The notes under the pieces: model-generated
The model's input: only the letters and a program-made list of their open reading frames with translations
Told to the model about the DNA's origin: nothing
Database searches by the model: none
Made by a program: the position numbers and the translations under genes
Origin: an uncultured Bacteroides sp.
GTDB taxonomy: Bacteria > Bacteroidota > Bacteroidia > Bacteroidales > Bacteroidaceae
Direction of reading: 5' to 3'
Assembly: GCA_959606905.1 (NCBI GenBank)
Contig: CAUHML010000096.1
Span: 1-12,494, forward strand
DNA length: 12,494 bases
In this document: positions 2,649 through 12,494 of the stretch, one piece after another
Layout of the letters: the number at the start of each line of letters is the position of its first letter
How positions within the stretch are numbered: the stretch's first letter is position 1

Positions 2649-3239
2649 TTAAGCTCTATTTATTATTATTTTGAGTTTGAAAAACTCGTCTTGAATTGTT
2701 TGTAAATTCTCTTGAATTTCAACGATTCTTTCTGGACTATATGTGATTTTACCTCTTTTAACTTCAATGTCAGGAGGTGATTTAGACATAACAGATGTGT
2801 CAGTAAGTAAAGGTTTTAATCGTTTGTAGTTTGTATCTAAAACTTCTTTAATGTCATCCACTTTAAATTCAGATTTTTTGAAAGAATCTATTTTCTTAAA
2901 TAACTTATGGCGTGTTATATTGGATTTTGAATATAAGCTTATCACCTCTGTATAGGTTGTACTATTCAATTTATTTCCAAGTTCGACTAGTGGAGATTCG
3001 GTGTTTTCTACCTGAGAAATAAACATCTCTTTTTCTATTCGAACATCTTGTACTTCTTTCTCTAGAACTTTTGATATATAAATTGCACAACCTATGGTTA
3101 AAAATAGCGATATTGCATCTATTATAGATATTTCCTTGTTTAAAACAAAATATCCCCAATCAATCAGTTTACCACAACAACATCCAATACTGAATATTAT
3201 AATATAGATAATTATGTTAATGATTTTGTTCTTTTTCAT
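2649..3239 (-). CDS. Small membrane protein, third gene of ATPase/STAS-like cassette
   Basis: I do not recognise a family. From the chosen ATG the protein is 196 residues. It has two hydrophobic segments: residues about 6-26 (IINIIIYIIIFSIGCCCGKLI, with three consecutive Cys) and about 38-56 (IIDAISLFLTIGCAIYIS). A charged, helix-prone cytoplasmic domain of about 135 residues follows. The lysine-rich first residues suggest that the N-terminus stays inside, giving a hairpin in the inner membrane with the C-terminal domain in the cytoplasm. The start is uncertain: ATGs at 3245 and 3239 and a TTG at 3251 are all in frame, and each overlaps the STAS-like gene. The overlap argues for coupled expression. 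It may be the membrane anchor or output of the module; that is inference. Confidence 0.75.
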   Translation of the reverse strand: MKKNKIINIIIYIIIFSIGCCCGKLIDWGYFVLNKEISIIDAISLFLTIGCAIYISKVLEKEVQDVRIEKEMFISQVENTESPLVELGNKLNSTTYTEVISLYSKSNITRHKLFKKIDSFKKSEFKVDDIKEVLDTNYKRLKPLLTDTSVMSKSPPDIEVKRGKITYSPERIVEIQENLQTIQDEFFKLKIIINRA

Positions 3240-3567
3240 AGGCATCTTCAATATAATTATCTACTTCTTCTTTATAATCAGGATCTTCGTCTGAAATTAT
3301 AATAAGTGTTTGTTTGAGAATATTGTAATTTATATGGTCTCTCCTAATTAGACCTCCGAAAGATTCTTCCAAAAAAGATGTACCTAAACCAGCAGTGCCG
3401 TCTAAGTCAACAATTAGCTTTACATTCATTTCTATTGCTTTTTTCAGTGCAGGATGTAGAACATTTTGTCTAAATTCTTGACCGGAATAATCTCCTTCTT
3501 CAGGATAACGAGCACCCGGAATACGACTGAAATCTGTCGCGATTTTTATTATAATATCTTTATTCAT
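3217..3567 (-). CDS. STAS-like domain protein (DUF4325 type)
   Basis: This 116-residue protein is a single STAS-like domain. The diagnostic stretch is LIVDLDGTAGLGTSFLEESF (51-70): a buried beta strand, then a loop and a helix start, where true STAS anti-sigma antagonists carry the phosphorylatable serine. T63 and S64 lie in the comparable place. FSRIPGARYPEEGDYSGQEFR (13-33) is also typical of DUF4325 proteins as I recall them. In partner-switching systems STAS proteins bind GHKL ATPases. Here the gene overlaps the preceding GHKL-like gene by 8 bases (ATGAATAA) and the following membrane-protein gene by at least 23 bases, so the three are almost certainly one translationally coupled operon. 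A role as binding partner of the ATPase is inferred. Confidence 0.8.
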   Translation of the reverse strand: MNKDIIIKIATDFSRIPGARYPEEGDYSGQEFRQNVLHPALKKAIEMNVKLIVDLDGTAGLGTSFLEESFGGLIRRDHINYNILKQTLIIISDEDPDYKEEVDNYIEDAYEKEQNH

Positions 3568-4639
3568 AATTTATATTTACATTGTTAAAATTCAATTCCC
3601 AATGGATAAATGTTCCAGCAAACGAATTGTTTAATTTGACATTTGTACCTGCTGTGTATTCAACTTTAGCATCGTTTGCTATAACAACAACGTTTGCAAT
3701 CTTGTTGTCTTCACACGCTTTAAATAAGCATGGAAGACCCTTACCTCTATAATACTTACCTGTTGATGTCTTATGAATTTCTCCCTTAAGTAGCAGAGAG
3801 AGCATTTCTGCATTATTTTGCGGATTGAATAATTCACGGATCTTTGGTATAATATTATAAAACTTACCATGTTCATCATTACGTAAGCTATTAATTATGC
3901 CAACGCCATAATCTATAAATGAAAAGTATGCTTTCTTTAACTTTTCATCATATTGTACAGTTGTCCACCAATGATGTAAGCCCTTTGAATCAAAAGAAGC
4001 ATGATTATTTGTGTTTTGCATGAGTTCAAGAAAAACTCTTTGAACCCCCAAACATCTTCTTTGCTTACCCCATATTAAATTGGATATTTCTGAAATAATT
4101 TGATCTGCTAGACTAGAGTCTACTACTTTTCCTGCATGAGTTAGGACTTTGTTCCTGCAAAACGCATAATTAGGTTCATTGCTTATATTTCTTTTATACA
4201 ACTGATCAAAAAAACCAGAATCAACCAATGCTTTATTTGCATTCTTATTTTTAGGGAAATTTCCATTAAAATCAATATGATTGTATTTGAATTTAGTCAT
4301 TATTGATAAGAGGACGACAATAGCCCCATGAGCTATTGTTTCTACATCTGTTAAATTGACAAATACCTTACTTCGATTCTTTAAGCATTTTTCGATTTTT
4401 GCTATGAATTTTAGTGATTCTTCTGTGTTTTCGATTAGTGAAAAGTTCGAAGGAGCCTTTATTTTAGAATAATCTTTAAATCGATTTTCTAAAATATATT
4501 TCTGACGTTCTTCTTTTGATTTCCCTTGAAGGTAACGCCTTTTGTTTTTCTTTTTTTTCTTTGATATAATCCGTCTTAATTCTTGCTTTTTGGCATGATT
4601 AATAAGGATTTTCTTTTCTCTTTCTGTTAATATTTTCAT
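3560..4639 (-). CDS. GHKL-type (HATPase) ATP-binding protein with N-terminal STAS-like region
   Basis: This is a 359-residue protein. Residues 18-48 are strongly Lys/Arg-rich. Residues about 60-150 look like a degenerate STAS fold (KVFVNLTDVETIAHGAIVVL at 91-110). Residues 198-350 form a GHKL ATP-binding domain: N-box ELMQN (205-209, with N209 as the likely Mg ligand), G1 box DYGVGI (243-248), a glycine-rich lid GKYYRGKG (294-301) and a final GTFIHWEL strand (342-349). There is no His-phosphotransfer or receiver domain, so it is not an ordinary sensor kinase. It could resemble anti-sigma-type kinases or MORC/Hsp90-like switch ATPases. The first gene of the minus-strand cassette, it is followed by an 8-base overlap with the STAS-like gene. 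The region is visibly A/T-rich compared with hsdR, suggesting separate acquisition. Confidence 0.78.
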   Translation of the reverse strand: MKILTEREKKILINHAKKQELRRIISKKKKKNKRRYLQGKSKEERQKYILENRFKDYSKIKAPSNFSLIENTEESLKFIAKIEKCLKNRSKVFVNLTDVETIAHGAIVVLLSIMTKFKYNHIDFNGNFPKNKNANKALVDSGFFDQLYKRNISNEPNYAFCRNKVLTHAGKVVDSSLADQIISEISNLIWGKQRRCLGVQRVFLELMQNTNNHASFDSKGLHHWWTTVQYDEKLKKAYFSFIDYGVGIINSLRNDEHGKFYNIIPKIRELFNPQNNAEMLSLLLKGEIHKTSTGKYYRGKGLPCLFKACEDNKIANVVVIANDAKVEYTAGTNVKLNNSFAGTFIHWELNFNNVNINYE

Positions 4640-4650
4640 ATATCAGTTAT

Positions 4651-4666
4651 ACACATTTTTATGTGT
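4651..4666. repeat. Hairpin or palindrome in leader of the ATPase gene
   Basis: ACACAT and ATGTGT are perfectly inverted around TTTT, and the stem can extend two more pairs with one wobble. It lies 11 bases upstream of the ATPase ATG, inside the expected 5' leader on the minus strand. It may be an operator or an RNA hairpin affecting translation; chance is possible. Confidence 0.4.
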
Positions 4667-4675
4667 GTTGTCTAT

Positions 4676-4705
4676 TGGGATGACAAAAGTACAAAAATAA
4701 TCCCA
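4676..4705. promoter_or_regulatory. Divergent control region: inverted repeat over minus-strand -7 box
   Basis: TGGGAT (4676-4681) and ATCCCA (4700-4705) are perfect inverted copies with an 18-bp spacer. Centred between them, TACTTTTG on the minus strand (4691 down to 4684) fits the Bacteroides -7 consensus and would serve the ATPase/STAS-like operon, whose ATG is about 45 bases away. A dimeric regulator bound here could silence that promoter. The nearby XRE protein (4755) is the obvious candidate, but nothing in the sequence proves it. Confidence 0.4.
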
Positions 4706-4724
4706 GTTGTCGAATATAATTCAC

Positions 4725-4732
4725 TATATTTG
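4725..4732 (+). promoter_or_regulatory. -7 promoter box (TATATTTG) of the XRE regulator gene
   Basis: TATATTTG is a full match to TAnnTTTG and lies 22 bases before the ATG at 4755, leaving a very short leader. The nearest TTG-type -33 candidate (4707-4709) is closer than the usual spacing. The position of this box rules out the in-frame TTG at 4707 as the translation start, because transcription would begin downstream of it. Confidence 0.6.
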
Positions 4733-4754
4733 CACTATAAAATCGTATCAAAGA

Positions 4755-4964
4755 ATGAAACTGAATAGAATAAAAGCAGTCCTTTCGGAAAAAGGCATTT
4801 CTCAAACGTGGTTAGCCAAACAGTTGGATAAGAGTTTTAGCATGGTCAATGCCTATGCGTGCAATAGGATTCAACCTAATTTGGAAACGCTTCAGCGGAT
4901 TGCCGAGATTCTACAGGTTGATTTAAAGGATTTGATAACCGATAAAAAGGAAAGACTACAATAG
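4755..4964 (+). CDS. XRE-family HTH regulator (controller-like)
   Basis: This 69-residue protein is a single Cro/C1-type helix-turn-helix domain. The HTH is at about 15-36 (ISQTWLAKQLDKSFSMVNAY), followed by NRIQPNLETLQRIAEILQVDLKDLI (37-61), the usual XRE helices 4-5. Size and fold resemble controller (C) proteins of restriction-modification systems, and similar small XRE genes often precede RM loci in Bacteroidales. It is divergent from the ATPase/STAS-like operon and 123 bases upstream of hsdR, so it could control either or both. The start is the ATG at 4755, because the -7 box at 4725-4732 excludes the earlier in-frame TTG. It lacks any ligand-binding or protease domain. Which promoter it binds is unknown. 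Confidence 0.85.
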   Translation: MKLNRIKAVLSEKGISQTWLAKQLDKSFSMVNAYACNRIQPNLETLQRIAEILQVDLKDLITDKKERLQ

Positions 4965-5087: not shown

Positions 5088-7916
5088 ATGTCAACACAAA
5101 GTGAAGCGGCATTGGAAGCCGGACTGATAGCCACTCTTCTACAAATGGACTATGAATATGTCCAAATCGTAGAAGAGGATAATATGTATGCCAATTTTAA
5201 ACGACAGTTGGAGGTTCATAACCGCAAACGACTGGAGGAACATGGGCGTAGCGAGTTTACAACAGAAGAATTTGAAAAGATTCTTATATACCTTGAAGGT
5301 GGTACTCGCTTTGAAAAGGCAAAGAAACTCCGTGACTTATATCCGCTTGATACGGCTGATGGACAGCGTATATGGGTGGAATTTCTAAATAGGCAGCAGT
5401 GGTGTCAGAATGAATTTCAGGTTTCCAACCAAATCACGGTGGAAGGACGTAAAAAATGCCGTTATGATGTGACGATTCTAATTAATGGTTTGCCACTTGT
5501 GCAGATTGAATTGAAACGTCGTGGCGTGGAACTTAAACAGGCATACAATCAAATACAGCGTTATCACAAGACTTCGTTTCACGGATTGTTTGATTATATC
5601 CAGTTGTTTGTTATATCCAATGGTGTTAACACTCGCTATTTTGCCAATAATCCAAATAGTGGGTATAAGTTCACATTCAACTGGACAGATGCCGCCAATC
5701 ATCCATTCAATGAATTGGATAAGTTTGCTGTATTCTTTTTGGAAAAATGTACACTTGGCAAAATCATAGGAAAGTATATCGTGCTGCATGAGGGTGACAA
5801 GTGTTTGATGGTACTTCGTCCTTACCAATTCTATGCGGTAGAGAAGATTTTGGATCGTGTACAAAACTCCAATGATAATGGTTATATCTGGCATACAACA
5901 GGTGCTGGAAAAACATTGACCTCATTCAAGGCCGCACAACTTGTATCAGAATTGGATGATGTGGATAAGGTGATGTTTGTTGTTGACCGTCATGACCTCG
6001 ATACTCAGACGCAATCGGAATACGAGGCGTTTGAACCGGGTGCAGTGGATAGTACCGACAATACGGATGAACTCGTGAAGCGACTTCAAAGCAATTCCAA
6101 AATCATCATAACCACCATTCAAAAACTTAATGCGGCAGTTAGTAAGACTTGGTATAGCAGTAAGATTGATGCTATCCGTCATTCACGCATCGTGATGATT
6201 TTTGATGAGTGTCACCGTAGTCATTTCGGGGATAGCCATAAAAAGATTATGAAGTTCTTTGATAATGCCCAGATTTTTGGCTTTACGGGAACACCTATCT
6301 TTACTGAAAATGCAGTGGATGGACATACGACAAAAGAAATTTTCGGCAATTGTCTTCATAAATATCTCATCAAAGATGCTATTGCTGATGAAAATGTGCT
6401 CGGCTTCCTCGTGGAGTATTATCACGGTAACGAGATTGTAGATAACGATAACCAAGCTCGTATGGAGGAGATAGCAAGATTTATCCTTAACAACTTTAAT
6501 AAATCTACATTTGATGGAGAGTTTGACGCATTGTTTGCTGTGCAGTCTGTTCCTATGCTTATCCGCTATTACAAGATTTTCAAATCATTGAATCCTAAAA
6601 TCCGTATAGGTGCAGTATTTACATACGCAGCCAATAATAGTCAAGATGATGAACAGACCGGTATGGGAACGGGAAAATATGTCAGCGAAAATGTGGGCGA
6701 AGCAGATGAACTGCAATCCATTATGGATGATTATAATGAAAACTTTGGTACATCTTTTACCACAGAGAATTTCCGTGCTTATTATGATGATATCAACCTG
6801 CGCATGAAAAAGAAGAAAGCGGAAATGAAACCGCTTGACCTTTGTCTTGTCGTGGGAATGTTCCTTACAGGCTTTGACAGTAAAAAGCTGAACACGCTTT
6901 ATGTGGATAAGAACATGGAATATCACGGGTTGTTGCAAGCGTTCAGTCGTACCAACCGAGTGTTGAACGAGAAGAAACGATTCGGTAAAATCGTATGCTT
7001 CCGTGACCTGAAAAACAATGTTGATACGTCTATAAAACTGTTTAGCAATTCCGACAATCCTGAAGATATAGTACGTCCTCCGTTTGAAAAAGTAAAGCAG
7101 GAGTACAAGAGTTTGGCAACAGATTTTCTGCAAAAATATCCAACGCCAAGTAGTATAGACCTTCTGCAAAGTGAAAATGACAAGAAGAATTTTGTACTTG
7201 CGTTCCGTGACATTATTCGTAAACATGCAGAAGTTCAGATATACGAAGATTACAGCGAGGATGCTGAAGACCTCGGTATGACCGAACAGCAGTTTAACGA
7301 TTATAAGAGTAAATACCTTGATATTACAGTTGGGTTTATTGATCCACCTGCTACACCGTCAACTGTTGCGGAAGATCCTGCCCCATACGGGAATAATCAA
7401 GGGCTGGAAGACATTGATTTCTGTCTTGAACTTCTGCATAGTGACATTATCAATGTGGCGTATATTCTTGAACTCATTGCGGAACTTGACCCATATAGCG
7501 ATGATTATTCAGAAAAGCGCAAGCATATCCTTGATACAATGATTAAGGATGCTGGAATGCGAGGCAAAGCAAAACTCATCGACGGCTTTATTCAAAAGAA
7601 TGTAGATGAAGACAAGGAAAACTTCATGAATGGGCGCAATAGAGCAGATGGAACAAATGAATTAGAGGAACGTTTGAACCAATATATTGTGTCAGAACGC
7701 AATAAGGCTGTAAGTGATTTGGCTAATGATGAACAAATTTCTGCCGAAGTGCTTAATCTTTACATAAAAGAGTATGACTATTTGCAAAAAGAACAGCCTG
7801 AGATTATACAAAAGGCATTGAAAGAAAAGCATCTCGGTCTTATCAAAACTCGCAAGGCTTTGACGAGAATTATGGAAAGATTGCGTAGTATTATAAAAAC
7901 GTTTAATTGGGAATAA
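5088..7916 (+). CDS. hsdR: Type I restriction enzyme, R subunit (HsdR)
   Basis: HsdR is the motor and nuclease subunit that, with HsdM and HsdS, translocates DNA using ATP and cleaves unmethylated DNA. At 942 residues it is of normal length. The N-terminal HSDR_N nuclease domain has the PD-(D/E)XK-type residues D127 and E141-x-K143 (in RYDVTILINGLPLVQIELKRR). The SF2 translocase follows: Walker A GAGKT at 272-276, Walker B DECH at 373-376, motif III TGTP at 400-403, and motif VI QAFSRTNR at 617-624. A C-terminal helical region of about 300 residues should contact the methyltransferase. No frameshift or lost catalytic residue is seen. GGCAAGGAT precedes the ATG, a modest ribosome binding site. 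No convincing promoter is visible in the 123-bp gap after the XRE gene, so it may be cotranscribed with that gene. Confidence 0.97.
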   Translation: MSTQSEAALEAGLIATLLQMDYEYVQIVEEDNMYANFKRQLEVHNRKRLEEHGRSEFTTEEFEKILIYLEGGTRFEKAKKLRDLYPLDTADGQRIWVEFLNRQQWCQNEFQVSNQITVEGRKKCRYDVTILINGLPLVQIELKRRGVELKQAYNQIQRYHKTSFHGLFDYIQLFVISNGVNTRYFANNPNSGYKFTFNWTDAANHPFNELDKFAVFFLEKCTLGKIIGKYIVLHEGDKCLMVLRPYQFYAVEKILDRVQNSNDNGYIWHTTGAGKTLTSFKAAQLVSELDDVDKVMFVVDRHDLDTQTQSEYEAFEPGAVDSTDNTDELVKRLQSNSKIIITTIQKLNAAVSKTWYSSKIDAIRHSRIVMIFDECHRSHFGDSHKKIMKFFDNAQIFGFTGTPIFTENAVDGHTTKEIFGNCLHKYLIKDAIADENVLGFLVEYYHGNEIVDNDNQARMEEIARFILNNFNKSTFDGEFDALFAVQSVPMLIRYYKIFKSLNPKIRIGAVFTYAANNSQDDEQTGMGTGKYVSENVGEADELQSIMDDYNENFGTSFTTENFRAYYDDINLRMKKKKAEMKPLDLCLVVGMFLTGFDSKKLNTLYVDKNMEYHGLLQAFSRTNRVLNEKKRFGKIVCFRDLKNNVDTSIKLFSNSDNPEDIVRPPFEKVKQEYKSLATDFLQKYPTPSSIDLLQSENDKKNFVLAFRDIIRKHAEVQIYEDYSEDAEDLGMTEQQFNDYKSKYLDITVGFIDPPATPSTVAEDPAPYGNNQGLEDIDFCLELLHSDIINVAYILELIAELDPYSDDYSEKRKHILDTMIKDAGMRGKAKLIDGFIQKNVDEDKENFMNGRNRADGTNELEERLNQYIVSERNKAVSDLANDEQISAEVLNLYIKEYDYLQKEQPEIIQKALKEKHLGLIKTRKALTRIMERLRSIIKTFNWE

Positions 7917-7933
7917 TTAAAAGTTATTCAATC

Positions 7934-8875
7934 ATGAAATTAGGTAAACTGGAGCAGATAACAGACCTTCGTTCTGTCTGGAAACATGAAGCCAAAGATT
8001 TTACTCCTTGGCTTGCAAAAGAAGAGAATTTGGAAATTCTCAGCGAGGCTGTAGGTATTGATATAGTCGTTGAAGAACAGGAATCCAATGTAGGCGATTT
8101 CAGTGTTGATTTATTTGCGACAGAGGAGGGGACGGGACGACGGATAATCATTGAGAATCAGCTAGAGGAAACAAATCATGACCATCTTGGCAAAATCATA
8201 ACGTATGCTTCAGGTAAAGAAGCTGAAGTAATAATTTGGATTGTCAGAAAAGCACGTGACGAGCATAAACAAGCAATAGAATGGTTAAATCAGCATACGG
8301 ATGACAAGTTCGAGTTTTTCTTAATAGAAATAGAATTGTGGAAAATCAATGATTCAGAACCTGCACCTAAGTTCAATATTGTAGAACGACCTAATACTTG
8401 GGCAAAGGCAATGAAAAAGACAGCAGCACTTTCAGAAACAGAAAACTTGAAATTAGCATTTTGGGAAAAGTTCAACAACGAAGCTCCAAAACACTCTGCC
8501 TTTATAAGGGAATTTAAGCTGCGTAAACCACAAGCTCAGCATTGGTATGACCTAGGTTTAGGATCATCAGCATATCATCTTTGTATGACATTAAATACTA
8601 AAAATAATTGTTTGTCAGCTGGATTGTATGTTAATGAGGACAAGGATATCATTACCCGATTTAAGTCAAATGAAGAATTGGTATCTAAAATATTAGGGAT
8701 TATAAATCCTAATGAAATAGAATGGCGACTAGATGAAAATAAAAAGGCAAGTCGTTTCCTTATTCTTCATCCTATGGGGGATATGAATGATAAAGATAAT
8801 TGGGATAATGGATGTGCATGGCTTTGTGATATGTGTGTAAAAATCAAACAAGTAGTAAAAGAAATACTAAAATAA
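7934..8875 (+). CDS. DUF4268-type protein with PD-(D/E)XK-like N-terminal domain
   Basis: This is a 313-residue protein. The N-terminal half (about 1-150) looks like a PD-(D/E)XK nuclease-fold domain: VGDFSVDLFA supplies D59, followed by RIIIENQLE with E74-x-Q76, then HLGKIITYASG. Gln at the usual Lys position is tolerated in several families of this fold, so activity is possible but unproved. The C-terminal half (about 175-313) matches DUF4268, a domain often seen in such proteins. It is placed between hsdR and hsdM, 17 bases after one and 1 base before the other, so it is part of the RM operon. It could be an extra nuclease, an end-binding helper or a modulator of HsdR. The start is the ATG at 7934; an in-frame TTG at 7907 would overlap hsdR and is less likely. 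Confidence 0.82.
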   Translation: MKLGKLEQITDLRSVWKHEAKDFTPWLAKEENLEILSEAVGIDIVVEEQESNVGDFSVDLFATEEGTGRRIIIENQLEETNHDHLGKIITYASGKEAEVIIWIVRKARDEHKQAIEWLNQHTDDKFEFFLIEIELWKINDSEPAPKFNIVERPNTWAKAMKKTAALSETENLKLAFWEKFNNEAPKHSAFIREFKLRKPQAQHWYDLGLGSSAYHLCMTLNTKNNCLSAGLYVNEDKDIITRFKSNEELVSKILGIINPNEIEWRLDENKKASRFLILHPMGDMNDKDNWDNGCAWLCDMCVKIKQVVKEILK

Positions 8876-8876
8876 T

Positions 8877-10430
8877 ATGAGCGAAGAATTACAGCAGAAA
8901 CTCCGTGACCAACTTTGGGAGGTTGCAAATCGTTTGCGTGGTAATATGTCGGCAAGCGACTTTATGTATTTTACATTAGGTTTCATCTTCTATAAGTACT
9001 TGTCGGAGAAAATAGAGAAGTATGCCAACAATGCCTTGGTGGATGATGAAATAACCTTTAAGGAATTGTGGGAAATGGATGATACAGATGCGGTTGAACT
9101 ACAAGAAGAAGCGAAAAATCAATGCTTGGAGAATATTGGTTATTTCATAGAACCAAAATTTTTGTTTTCGTCAGTAATTGAGGCTATCAAGCGTAAAGAA
9201 AATATCTTGCCTATGCTCGAACGTTCATTGAAGCGTATTGAAGACAGTACGTTGGGACAGGATAGTGAAGAGGATTTTGGCGGATTGTTTTCGGATATAG
9301 ACTTGGCATCGCCTAAATTGGGCAAGACAGCTGACGATAAAAACACGCTCGTTAGTAACGTTCTTCTTGCATTAGATGATATAGACTTCGGAGTAGAGGC
9401 ATCGCAGGAGATTGATATTTTGGGTGATGCTTACGAATATATGATTTCGCAATTTGCCGCAGGAGCCGGGAAAAAGGCTGGAGAGTTCTATACTCCGCAG
9501 GAGGTCAGCCGTATCTTAGCAGAAATTGTTTCCATCGGACACCAGCGTTTGCGCAATGTATATGACCCTACTTGCGGTAGTGGCTCGTTGCTTCTTCGTG
9601 CTGCCAATATCGGAAATGCAGTTGATATTTATGGACAGGAAAAGAATCCTACAACTTATAACCTTGCCCGAATGAATATGTTGCTTCATGGCATCAGATT
9701 CAGCAACTTCAAGATTGAGAATGGTGATACACTTGAATGGGATGCGTTTGGTGATACTCAGTTTGATGCTGTAGTTGCAAATCCTCCGTTCTCTGCAGAA
9801 TGGAGTGCTGCCGACAAATTCAATACTGATGATCGTTTCAGCAAAGCAGGAAGGCTTGCACCACGTAAGACTGCCGATTATGCTTTTATCCTGCACATGA
9901 TTTATCACTTGAACGAGGGCGGTACAATGGCTTGTGTTGCTCCGCATGGTGTACTATTCCGAGGAAATGCGGAGGGCGTTATCCGGCGTTTCCTTATAGA
10001 AAAGAAAAACTATGTGGATGCTATTATAGGATTACCTGCAAATATTTTCTATGGCACAAGTATTCCGACTTGTATTCTTGTTTTTAAGAAGTGCCGTAAA
10101 GAAGATGACAATATTCTGTTTATTGATGCAAGCAAGGAATTTGAAAAGGTAAAGACTCAGAACAAGCTCCGCGAGCAGCATATCCAAAAGATTGTCGAGA
10201 CTTATCGTGACCGCAAGGAAATAGAAAAGTATAGTCACCTTGCCTCTCTTCAAGAAATAGCCGAGAATGATTACAATCTGAATATTCCCCGTTACGTTGA
10301 TACCTTTGAAGAGGAAGAACCTATCGACATAAAGGCTGTAATGGCAGAGATAAAGGAGTTGGAAGCCAAACGTGCTGAACTCGACAAAGAGATTGAAGTG
10401 TATCTGAAAGAATTGGGACTGGTAGAATAG
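8877..10430 (+). CDS. hsdM: Type I restriction-modification DNA methyltransferase (HsdM)
   Basis: HsdM transfers a methyl group from S-adenosylmethionine to N6 of adenine at the site chosen by HsdS, protecting host DNA. Its 517 residues are of typical length. The N-terminal helical HsdM_N domain (LWEVANRLRGNMSASDFMYF) is followed by the methyltransferase domain. FYTPQEVSRILAEIV precedes motif I DPTCGSGS at 230-237 (SAM binding). YGQEKNPTTYNLARMN follows, then the catalytic motif IV NPPF at 302-305. A C-terminal coiled-coil stretch (about 480-510, rich in Glu/Lys) probably packs against HsdS. It starts one base after the preceding gene's stop, so expression is coupled. All key residues are present; the enzyme should be active. 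The methylated sequence cannot be deduced from this gene. Confidence 0.97.
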   Translation: MSEELQQKLRDQLWEVANRLRGNMSASDFMYFTLGFIFYKYLSEKIEKYANNALVDDEITFKELWEMDDTDAVELQEEAKNQCLENIGYFIEPKFLFSSVIEAIKRKENILPMLERSLKRIEDSTLGQDSEEDFGGLFSDIDLASPKLGKTADDKNTLVSNVLLALDDIDFGVEASQEIDILGDAYEYMISQFAAGAGKKAGEFYTPQEVSRILAEIVSIGHQRLRNVYDPTCGSGSLLLRAANIGNAVDIYGQEKNPTTYNLARMNMLLHGIRFSNFKIENGDTLEWDAFGDTQFDAVVANPPFSAEWSAADKFNTDDRFSKAGRLAPRKTADYAFILHMIYHLNEGGTMACVAPHGVLFRGNAEGVIRRFLIEKKNYVDAIIGLPANIFYGTSIPTCILVFKKCRKEDDNILFIDASKEFEKVKTQNKLREQHIQKIVETYRDRKEIEKYSHLASLQEIAENDYNLNIPRYVDTFEEEEPIDIKAVMAEIKELEAKRAELDKEIEVYLKELGLVE

Positions 10431-10448
10431 TTCAGAAAAGTAATAGCA

Positions 10449-11861
10449 ATGGGTGAAAATGACAACATACCTCAGATGACACCTTCATTTGAGAATATAT
10501 GCCGCAAGGATGAAAACGGGAATGAATACTGGAGTTCTCGTGACCTTTGTGGTGCGATGGGTTATTCTGCTTATTGGAAATTTCAACGAGTCATAGATAA
10601 AGCCATTAAAGTAGCCGGAGAAAAAGGAATGAATGTGGACGAGCATTTCAACCAAGCGGTTGATATGGTCAAGATAGGAAACGGCTCATTTCGCAAGGTA
10701 AATATATTCCGACTCTCTCGTATGGCATGTATGATTATTGCGGAAAATGCAGATGGCAAAAAGTTGCTCGTCCAACAGGCACGAGGCTTTTTCTCACAAT
10801 CTGTCTCAATGGCTGAACTTATGCATAATTCGCTAAGTTCTAATATATTGTTGTATAAAACAGCACAAGGAGAGGCACGTGTAGAAGTCATTTTCAATAG
10901 CGAAACATTCTGGATGTCACAAAAAAGGATGGCGGACTTGTTTGGGGTTGATGTCAGAACCATAAATTATCATCTCGGACAAATTTACGAAACAGGAGAA
11001 CTTTCCAAAGAGGCAACTATCCGAAAAATTGGGATAGTTCAAACAGAAGGAGACCGGGAAGTGGAACGTATGCCGCTATTTTACAACCTCGATGCTATTG
11101 TTGCAGTGGGGTATAGGGTAAACAGCTATCAAGCTACTCAATTCCGCATTTGGGCTACTTCAGTGTTGAAAGAGTTTATCATTAAAGGATATGCCCTTGA
11201 TGATGAGAGACTAAAACAGGGCAAACATTTCGGGAAAGACTATTTTGACGATTTGCTTGAGCGTATTCGTGAAATACGCACCTCAGAGCGCAGATATTAC
11301 CAAAAGATAACTGACATTTATGCAGAATGTAGTGCGGATTACGACCCGAAATCAGAAGACACAAAGTTGTTCTTCAAGATGGTACAAAATATGATGCACC
11401 TTGCCGTTACTCATCATACGGCTGCGGAAATTATCTATCAACGGGCTGATTCCGAGCAACCTTACATGGGACTTACCACGTGGAAGAAAGCTCCTGACGG
11501 AAGAGTGCAAAAGTCTGATACCATCGTCGCAAAAAATTACCTGTCAGATTCTGAATTGTCCCAGTTGAATCTTATCACAACTGCTTTTCTTGATATGGCA
11601 GAATCACGTGCTGCACGTCATATTGTTTCAACTATGGATGATTGGAAGAAGTTTCTTCAACAATATCTTGCAACGATGGATTACGAGCCGTGCGATACAG
11701 CCGGAAAAGTGACACAAGAGGAAGCAAGAGATAAGGCTTATAGCGAATATGAAAAATATAAACTGATTCAAGACAAATCATACATATCGGATTTTGACCG
11801 TTTTAATGATGGAAATGATGAAACTCCGTTACTTCCATTTGACTTGAATCCTACAAAATAA
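10449..11861 (+). CDS. DinD/BRO-like N-domain fused to RhuM family protein
   Basis: This 470-residue protein appears to have two parts. Residues about 11-125 (FENICRKDENGNEYWSSRDL, then MGYSAYWKFQRVIDKA and FRLSRMACMIIAENADGKK) resemble the N-terminal domain of DinD/BRO-type DNA-damage or antirepressor proteins. Residues about 131-445 match the RhuM ('virulence') family, with VEVIFNSETFWMSQKRMADL, FYNLDAIVAVGYRVNSYQAT and HHTAAEIIYQRADSEQPYMG (321-340). RhuM proteins I recall are about 340 residues and usually lack the first part, so this is probably a fusion. Both families are frequent passengers between hsdM and hsdS genes, which is exactly its position (18 bases after hsdM, 8 before hsdS). 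The biochemical activity is unknown. It might modulate the RM complex, respond to DNA damage or act as a separate conflict protein. Confidence 0.8.
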   Translation: MGENDNIPQMTPSFENICRKDENGNEYWSSRDLCGAMGYSAYWKFQRVIDKAIKVAGEKGMNVDEHFNQAVDMVKIGNGSFRKVNIFRLSRMACMIIAENADGKKLLVQQARGFFSQSVSMAELMHNSLSSNILLYKTAQGEARVEVIFNSETFWMSQKRMADLFGVDVRTINYHLGQIYETGELSKEATIRKIGIVQTEGDREVERMPLFYNLDAIVAVGYRVNSYQATQFRIWATSVLKEFIIKGYALDDERLKQGKHFGKDYFDDLLERIREIRTSERRYYQKITDIYAECSADYDPKSEDTKLFFKMVQNMMHLAVTHHTAAEIIYQRADSEQPYMGLTTWKKAPDGRVQKSDTIVAKNYLSDSELSQLNLITTAFLDMAESRAARHIVSTMDDWKKFLQQYLATMDYEPCDTAGKVTQEEARDKAYSEYEKYKLIQDKSYISDFDRFNDGNDETPLLPFDLNPTK

Positions 11862-11869
11862 TAACAACT

Positions 11870-12494
11870 ATGGCAATAGATAATAAAGATAAAAAAATCC
11901 TCAATGTTCCCCCTTTGAGATTTCCAGAGTTTACGGAGGAGTGGAAAGCAGAGCAATTAGATAATATTGCTACTTTGTCAAAAGGAATTGGAATATCCAA
12001 AGAACAACTTTCTGAGGATGGCGAGCCATGTATCCTATATGGTGAATTATATACTAAGTACAAATCCGAAATCATCAAGCAAGTTGAAAGTAAGACTGAT
12101 ATTAACGGTTCTAAACTTAAAAGGAGTAAAGCTAATGATGTAATCATTCCTTGCTCTGGTGAAACTGCCGTTGATATTGCCACTGCACGATGTGTCCCAT
12201 TTGATAATATTCTATTTGGAGGTGATTTGAATGTCATTAGCTTGCATCAATACGATGGTGCATTTATGAGTTATCAGTTGAATGGTAAGCGTAAATATGA
12301 TATTGCAAGAGTAGCGCAGGGTGTATCTATTGTTCATCTATACGGAGAACATTTAAAAGCAATTAAAACCTACAATCCAACTTTACCCGAACAACAAAAA
12401 ATAGCCAAATTATTATCACTTCTTGATGATCGTATTGACACCCAAAACAAAATCATTGAGGATTTGAAGAAACTAAAGTCTGCGATTAGTAAAC
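11870..12494 (+). CDS. hsdS: Type I RM specificity subunit (HsdS), 3' end outside window
   Basis: HsdS chooses the DNA sequence recognised by the whole complex through two target-recognition domains (TRDs) joined by conserved helices. The 208 complete codons here start MAIDNKDKKILNVPPLRFPEF. They cover TRD1 (about 19-172, with LRFPEFTEEWK, the KGIGISKEQL loop and VAQGVSIVHLYGEHLK) and the start of the central conserved helix (LPEQQKIAKLLSLLDDRIDTQN, then KIIEDLKKLKSAI). The frame stays open to the window end, so TRD2 is presumably beyond it. The ATG lies 8 bases after the rhuM-like stop. In Bacteroidales, hsdS genes are often followed by inverted partial hsdS copies and a tyrosine recombinase that shuffles TRDs; whether that is so here cannot be seen. 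Confidence 0.93.
   Translation, partial: MAIDNKDKKILNVPPLRFPEFTEEWKAEQLDNIATLSKGIGISKEQLSEDGEPCILYGELYTKYKSEIIKQVESKTDINGSKLKRSKANDVIIPCSGETAVDIATARCVPFDNILFGGDLNVISLHQYDGAFMSYQLNGKRKYDIARVAQGVSIVHLYGEHLKAIKTYNPTLPEQQKIAKLLSLLDDRIDTQNKIIEDLKKLKSAISK

Follow-up and report, generated by a model that had tools for sequence, protein, structure and literature searches.

The window analysed here, by which we mean the whole stretch of 12,494 nucleotides from an uncultured Bacteroides sp., carries a three-gene operon that is likely a switch made up of a kinase, a STAS protein and a membrane effector, with anti-phage action as its likely role. The finding is best read as a membrane-effector variant of a kinase–STAS switch whose published form, VapKSC, has an RNase as its third component (Chambers et al., EMBO J, June 2026; PMC13373217). 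The three genes are as follows.

3560-4639, minus strand: G1, a STAS-GHKL kinase-type protein of 359 aa, assigned from the ORF, its motifs and an AF2 model
3217-3567, minus strand: G2, a DUF4325 STAS protein of 116 aa, the candidate inhibitor and kinase substrate
2649-3239, minus strand: G3, a two-TM protein with a cytoplasmic helical domain, 196 aa from the ATG at 3239, the candidate effector

G1 overlaps G2 by 8 bp. The ORF listing gives three alternative starts for G3 (TTG 3251, ATG 3245 and ATG 3239), and the overlap of G2 with G3 is 35, 29 or 23 bp according to the start used. The original prediction of three overlapping minus-strand genes (8 bp, then at least 23 bp) is borne out by these ORF coordinates. 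One possible promoter element lies in front of the operon:

4684-4691, minus strand: TACTTTTG, a candidate Bacteroides-type -7 element 5' of G1, from a scan for TAnnTTTG

The pattern scanned for is what we take to be the Bacteroides-type -7 consensus; it occurs 13 times in the whole window with 15 expected, and thus not above chance. The window has 17 sigma-70 promoter matches (13.4 expected) and one terminator match (0.9 expected), and a scan with Rfam gave no match at gathering scores. A divergent Cro/CI-type HTH gene at 4707-4964 faces G1 (region 4640-4964). An inverted repeat of 6 bp (4651-4656/4661-4666) lies in the gap between the two genes, as do three matches to TAnnTTTG (4684-4732). 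This region is possibly a shared promoter/operator.

G1 has no match in Pfam at E 0.1, and it matches PHROG 3364 (phrog_3364, 5e-39), a family of unknown function. Its predicted structure (AF2, pLDDT 89) matches SpoIIAB and STAS structures. Three parts can be distinguished.

4475-4639, minus strand: basic N-terminal helical extension, G1 residues 1-55, with 22 K/R vs 6 D/E
4196-4480, minus strand: STAS-fold domain, G1 residues 54-148, without a conserved acceptor Ser/Thr
3584-4156, minus strand: SpoIIAB-like GHKL domain, G1 residues 162-352, with E205, N209, D243, G299, G301, G342 and T343

In an alignment of 34 G1 sequences, the window sequence included, E205, N209, H213, D243, G245, G299, G301, G342 and T343 are invariant. 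It is near certain that G1 has a kinase fold. The GHKL-type ATPase with a Lys/Arg-rich N-terminus that had been read from the sequence is therefore upheld by the residue counts and the invariant ATP-site residues, the ATP-binding fold by the SpoIIAB match, and the degenerate STAS-like region by a matched STAS fold with no conserved acceptor. By our own measure, the N-terminal extension is absent from 16 of 112 kinases, some of which are truncated by contig ends.

G2 is a STAS-like protein of the DUF4325 family (Pfam, E 8.4e-12), which confirms the stand-alone protein of this type that had been proposed. It also matches the C-terminal part of a longer PHROG family (phrog_5816, 2.4e-15). It has a conserved pair of hydroxyl residues:

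3376-3381, minus strand: T63-S64 of G2, the candidate phospho-acceptor, from conservation and the alignment of column 63 with the VapS serine

Position 63 is Ser or Thr in 94 of 97 sequences, and position 64 is Ser in all 97. G2 is quite probably a kinase substrate at 63/64.

The pair formed by G1 and G2 has published relatives. For VapKSC, the published proposal is that the STAS-GHKL protein VapK phosphorylates S48 of VapS and so frees the PIN toxin VapC; the third gene is a toxin kept by the STAS protein, and the operon gives protection from phage Bas42 (PMC13373217). The Escherichia VapS chain (9z7o) comes second in a PDB search with a 46-sequence G2 profile (E 0.16) and is the best PDB match of the 97-sequence profile (E 0.036), a match that is non-significant by the usual cut-off. 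In that alignment the VapS serine, residue 66 of the 9z7o chain, falls on G2 column 63; residue 66 would be S48 if the construct has 18 extra residues. A second connection runs through a Deinococcus plasmid locus whose genes are annotated as encoding an ATP-binding, a STAS-like and a PIN protein. By hhalign, the G1 profile matches its VapK-type kinase with probability 88.9 and E 2.4e-6 over 240 columns spanning STAS and GHKL, and the G2 profile matches its VapS-type protein with probability 91.7 and E 7.8e-7, with a Ser on column 63. Both probabilities are below 95. Of five controls, three were aligned with G1 (two proteins of the window and one wHTH-GHKL-DUF4325 fusion) and two with G2 (a HipA-N protein and the PIN protein of the Deinococcus locus); they gave probabilities of 0.1-0.4 and E 0.16-0.45. 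By profile comparison, G1 and G2 are detectably related to VapK-type and VapS-type proteins.

The resemblance to VapKSC extends to the three-gene operon, to a STAS-GHKL kinase with no N-terminal HTH, and to a small STAS protein whose acceptor Ser/Thr, a predicted phosphosite here, occupies the same column. The third gene partners the STAS protein there and presumably does so here. By this analogy the operon very probably works like VapKSC. There are, however, four differences. The third gene is a PIN RNase in VapKSC and a membrane-anchored protein here. The aromatic at the proposed ssDNA site, F54 of Escherichia VapK (PMC13373217), is not kept in G1 homologues: the corresponding position is G1 column 101, where 2 of 34 sequences have Phe and all others a non-aromatic residue, the mapping being made through Deinococcus W53, which we take as the equivalent of F54. 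The basic N-terminal extension is usual in G1 homologues and absent from the two VapK-type kinases examined. Finally, the acceptor column of G2 is followed by the invariant S64, and in three VapS-type proteins by Pro or Ala. Since column 101 is mostly non-aromatic, ssDNA sensing may not carry over to G1, and with the basic extension added in most homologues the trigger may differ from that of VapK. On account of the membrane third gene, the lost aromatic, the basic extension and S64, the operon is not filed as VapKSC.

The words "transmembrane" and "Bacteroid" are absent from the main text of PMC13373217. No description of a kinase–STAS–membrane trio appears among the matches listed from the open-licence literature, judged by titles and the starts of abstracts. 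The original prediction had taken the system to be undescribed; that stands for the membrane third partner within the literature searched, and it does not stand for the kinase/STAS pair, which is kin to VapK and VapS (PMC13373217). Searches with a VapS fragment returned two plasmid records and one phage record, and no viral contig matched. An unannotated VapKSC-like trio lies on a human-gut phage contig (L170, MT837343, 1420-3192); its first two ORFs are kinase-type and STAS-type, and its third ORF is PIN-like by eye.

Two other arrangements join GHKL and STAS domains. In the same paper, CapK (HTH-STAS-GHKL) is an ssDNA-activated kinase of CapS (STAS-wHTH), which has a C-terminal wHTH and represses transcription (PMC13373217). 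A STAS-GHKL kinase that acts, here by prediction, on a STAS protein is common to both, but CapK carries an HTH and CapS a wHTH, and neither G1 nor G2 has an HTH match in Pfam at E 0.1. The second arrangement is a single wHTH-GHKL-DUF4325 protein (PHROG 5816-like; L058, L060, L061, L063, L066 and L070), which also places GHKL and DUF4325 in one pathway. It differs in being one fused protein, in having a DNA-binding domain and in its DUF4325 motif, and hhalign finds no detectable match between it and G1 (probability 0.3). It may be a self-contained transcription switch. Such single proteins are common in Gammaproteobacteria. DUF4325 is present in 53 of 369 genomes of that class; two of the 30 loci returned (L058-L087) are trios by motif (L069 and L075), and among ten of the other 28 that were read, GHKL-DUF4325 fusions are complete in six and partial in two.

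The third gene is the least conserved part of the operon. Its N-terminal part is listed here.

3057-3236, minus strand: G3 hydrophobic hairpin, the first helix at residues 2-25 and the second from about residue 39

In the predicted G3 model (pLDDT 82.6) the hairpin leads into a long helix, and the helical domain includes a small beta hairpin. The two hydrophobic segments and the helical remainder agree with the two-TM protein with a helical domain that had been expected. T146 is the sole invariant residue across 58 relatives. Over 35 trios, mean pairwise identity is 19% for G3, 36% for G1 and 43% for G2, making G3 the fastest-diverging member. Neither Pfam nor structure comparison finds a relative of known function, and Pfam finds no PIN domain in G3. 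PADLOC-DB 2.0.0 gives one weak match to G3 (RTasRmuC, E 0.0012) over its TM/coiled-coil part, and no model matches G1 or G2 at E 0.1. Among 83 third genes, no Pfam family occurs in more than one gene, and none has a PIN match at E 0.01. A hydropathy of 1.3 is exceeded by 118 of 126 third genes and one of 1.6 by 100 of 126 (duplicates included), compared with 26/59 and 22/59 control ORFs of 130-230 aa; hydrophobic N-termini are common among ORFs, which weakens the hydropathy argument for G3.

This divergence could be read in another way, with G3 as a sensor of envelope stress or phage adsorption that controls the kinase and is not the effector, and with G2 acting on an unlinked target. Sensors can diverge fastest, as G3 does, and no toxic domain is recognised in the third genes. 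However, the third gene of the related VapKSC is a toxin that the STAS protein restrains (PMC13373217), and the target of G2 would then be missing from the unit in 37 of 37 rows compared below. We regard the sensor role as unlikely. We lean slightly toward G3 being a membrane-acting toxin.

The association of the three genes is maintained over great distances. The G1 alignment was scanned against GTDB representative genomes, giving 34 loci in Bacteroidota, a Chitinispirillia, Verrucomicrobia, Opitutales, Methylophaga, Methylobacter, Patescibacteria-type and Omnitrophota genomes. These, together with one viral locus, L002 and the window, make 37 rows; L002, from a relative of the window's genome, is the same locus as L003. 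With G1 alone as bait, all 37 rows have G1, a STAS-like gene and a TM protein of 192-225 aa in that order, and in all 37 the genes overlap or nearly abut; 36 rows were called by script and L033 from its ORF listing. It had been asked whether the trio stays together across genomes, and in these rows it does. The members have also diverged together. Pairwise distances over 35 trios correlate with r of 0.905 for G1-G2, 0.768 for G1-G3 and 0.748 for G2-G3, and none of 2000 label shuffles reached the observed correlations. Of the original prediction, the analysis supports the gene content, the logic of a partner switch and the conserved linkage. Three candidates for G1-G2 or G2-G3 fusions (P0002, P0123 and P0129) were rejected, as parts of their domains are missing; their G2 rows are misplaced in the alignments, and they are probably assembly chimaeras.

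The distribution of the system is patchy. Of 59 relatives, two are positive, and one of these two is the nearest genome, which is near-identical. A survey of the phylum found 8 of 395 genomes positive with that nearest genome counted. In five of the eight the match reaches E 1.3e-39 or better, and in the other three it is weak and partial; the survey counts matches irrespective of their neighbours. This bears on whether the operon is an ordinary partner switch that acts on transcription through a sigma factor, in the manner of SpoIIAB/SpoIIAA or RsbW/RsbV. SpoIIAB is the closest structure to G1, and the GHKL serine-kinase fold and STAS substrate fold are both present. But G1 has its own STAS domain, a membrane protein takes the place of the third partner, the trio is a unit without a sigma factor or PP2C phosphatase, and no gene for either is found by Pfam among the ten window proteins scanned. 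Together with the patchy distribution and the carriage on mobile elements, this makes a sigma-factor switch very improbable.

Copies also occur on mobile elements. Searching IMG/VR with the G2 alignment yielded 170 relatives, of which 80 were kept, representing 74 distinct G2 sequences; two of these loci duplicate genome loci (L037 and L027). A GHKL-motif ORF lies upstream of G2 in 63 of the 74 distinct predicted-viral loci, and an ORF of >100 aa lies downstream in 72. The 11 loci without a kinase motif call comprise four at contig starts, six with an upstream ORF of 354-387 aa, and L137, which has no motif and no such ORF. The third genes exceed a hydropathy of 1.3 in 64 of 72 cases and 1.6 in 49 of 72. 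The search pattern used for G2 would miss VapS-type proteins, so the lack of PIN third genes is uninformative on how frequent VapKSC is. The kinase–STAS–third-gene layout is also found in Marinobacter phage AS1 and a Helicobacter prophage. Among plasmids, G2 matches came from 12 records; nine of these were inspected, and six of the nine have the kinase, the STAS protein and a TM-type third gene (L038, L039, L040, L042, L045 and L046), the kinase ORF of L045 being only 174 aa and the third ORF of L039 unannotated. One plasmid locus (L048) has neither kinase nor third gene. In an Acinetobacter wuhouensis plasmid (L044, 635-3336) an IS3-type element splits the kinase gene, and the STAS and TM genes are open. 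In the Vibrio vulnificus FORC_036 replicon (L047, 2956-3678) the gene after the DUF4325 gene encodes a two-TM protein of 126 aa, and no kinase gene adjoins the DUF4325 gene.

In the window itself, the operon has a split HipA-type TA on one side (666-2147) and a type I RM locus on the other (5088 to the window end), so the setting given in the original prediction is confirmed by gene matches. The TA consists of three overlapping plus-strand genes encoding an HTH protein (70 aa), a HipA N-terminal domain (112 aa) and a HipA C-terminal domain (324 aa), and is presumably HipBST-like. The RM operon (5088-12494, plus strand) encodes HsdR, HsdM and the start of HsdS. Two further genes sit between its core genes, one with DUF4268 (7907-8875, PADLOC candidate PDC-S11) and one of the RhuM family (10449-11861, PDC-S05).

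The suggestion that such operons are enriched near defence genes was followed at 18 of the 34 genome loci, picked for contigs long enough to supply a control. PADLOC was run at E 1e-15 on two sets of proteins of at least 170 aa: the 135 within about 8 kb of the trio, and 181 controls from other 16-kb stretches of those contigs. The flanks matched 56 and 75 PADLOC models and the controls 15 and 1. The flanks are richer than the controls, but since a single protein may hit many models, the matches cannot be counted as independent and we attach no p-value. Flank families among the matches listed are type III and IIG restriction, a type I specificity subunit, DrmMI, DrmD, AbiD, IetA and candidate PDC families. 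Control matches are AbiD, PDC-S01, PDC-S48, RT-related, mad, DEDDh, subtilase and an RmuC-like protein.

Carriage on plasmids and in phage and prophage DNA would also suit an addiction (toxin–antitoxin) module that serves to stabilise mobile DNA and plays no part in defence, the kinase freeing the membrane toxin upon element loss or stress. This reading is quite improbable: the chromosomal copies sit in defence-rich surroundings, and a kinase is superfluous to a labile-antitoxin scheme. The operon probably serves anti-phage defence or prophage exclusion.

The order of events that we infer for such a switch is as follows. At rest, G2 would bind the cytoplasmic helical domain of G3 and hold it inactive; by analogy with VapSC, it is rather probable that G2 holds G3 until phosphorylated. 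A danger signal would reach G1 through the basic N-terminal helix and/or the STAS domain. The signal would most likely be nucleic acid exposed through phage infection or DNA damage, which we propose as the trigger tentatively. Activated G1 would phosphorylate G2 at T63 or S64, phosphorylated G2 would release G3, and freed G3 would perturb the membrane, stopping the cell and the phage with it. Since no phosphatase gene is seen in the unit, the switch looks one-way, which fits abortive infection.

A wider reading, conceivable though a little short of probable when all its parts are taken jointly, is that these operons form a widespread and so far unreported class of immune switches carried by hosts and phages alike. 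The class would have a SpoIIAB-like STAS-GHKL kinase with a basic N-terminal sensor that responds to a cue other than the ssDNA stacking of CapK; phosphorylation of the DUF4325 protein would free a fast-evolving, membrane-disrupting effector; and VapKSC would be the RNase branch. The question this raises is what the kinase's cue is once the DNA-stacking residue is lost and a basic helix is gained. If the reading is true, it adds a system without a model in PADLOC-DB 2.0.0 and gives a testable function to many prophage and plasmid genes annotated "ATP-binding protein", "STAS-like protein" and "hypothetical protein". Bacterial immunity would then have a general means of arming RNase, transcription and membrane outputs, namely the phosphorylation of a STAS inhibitor.
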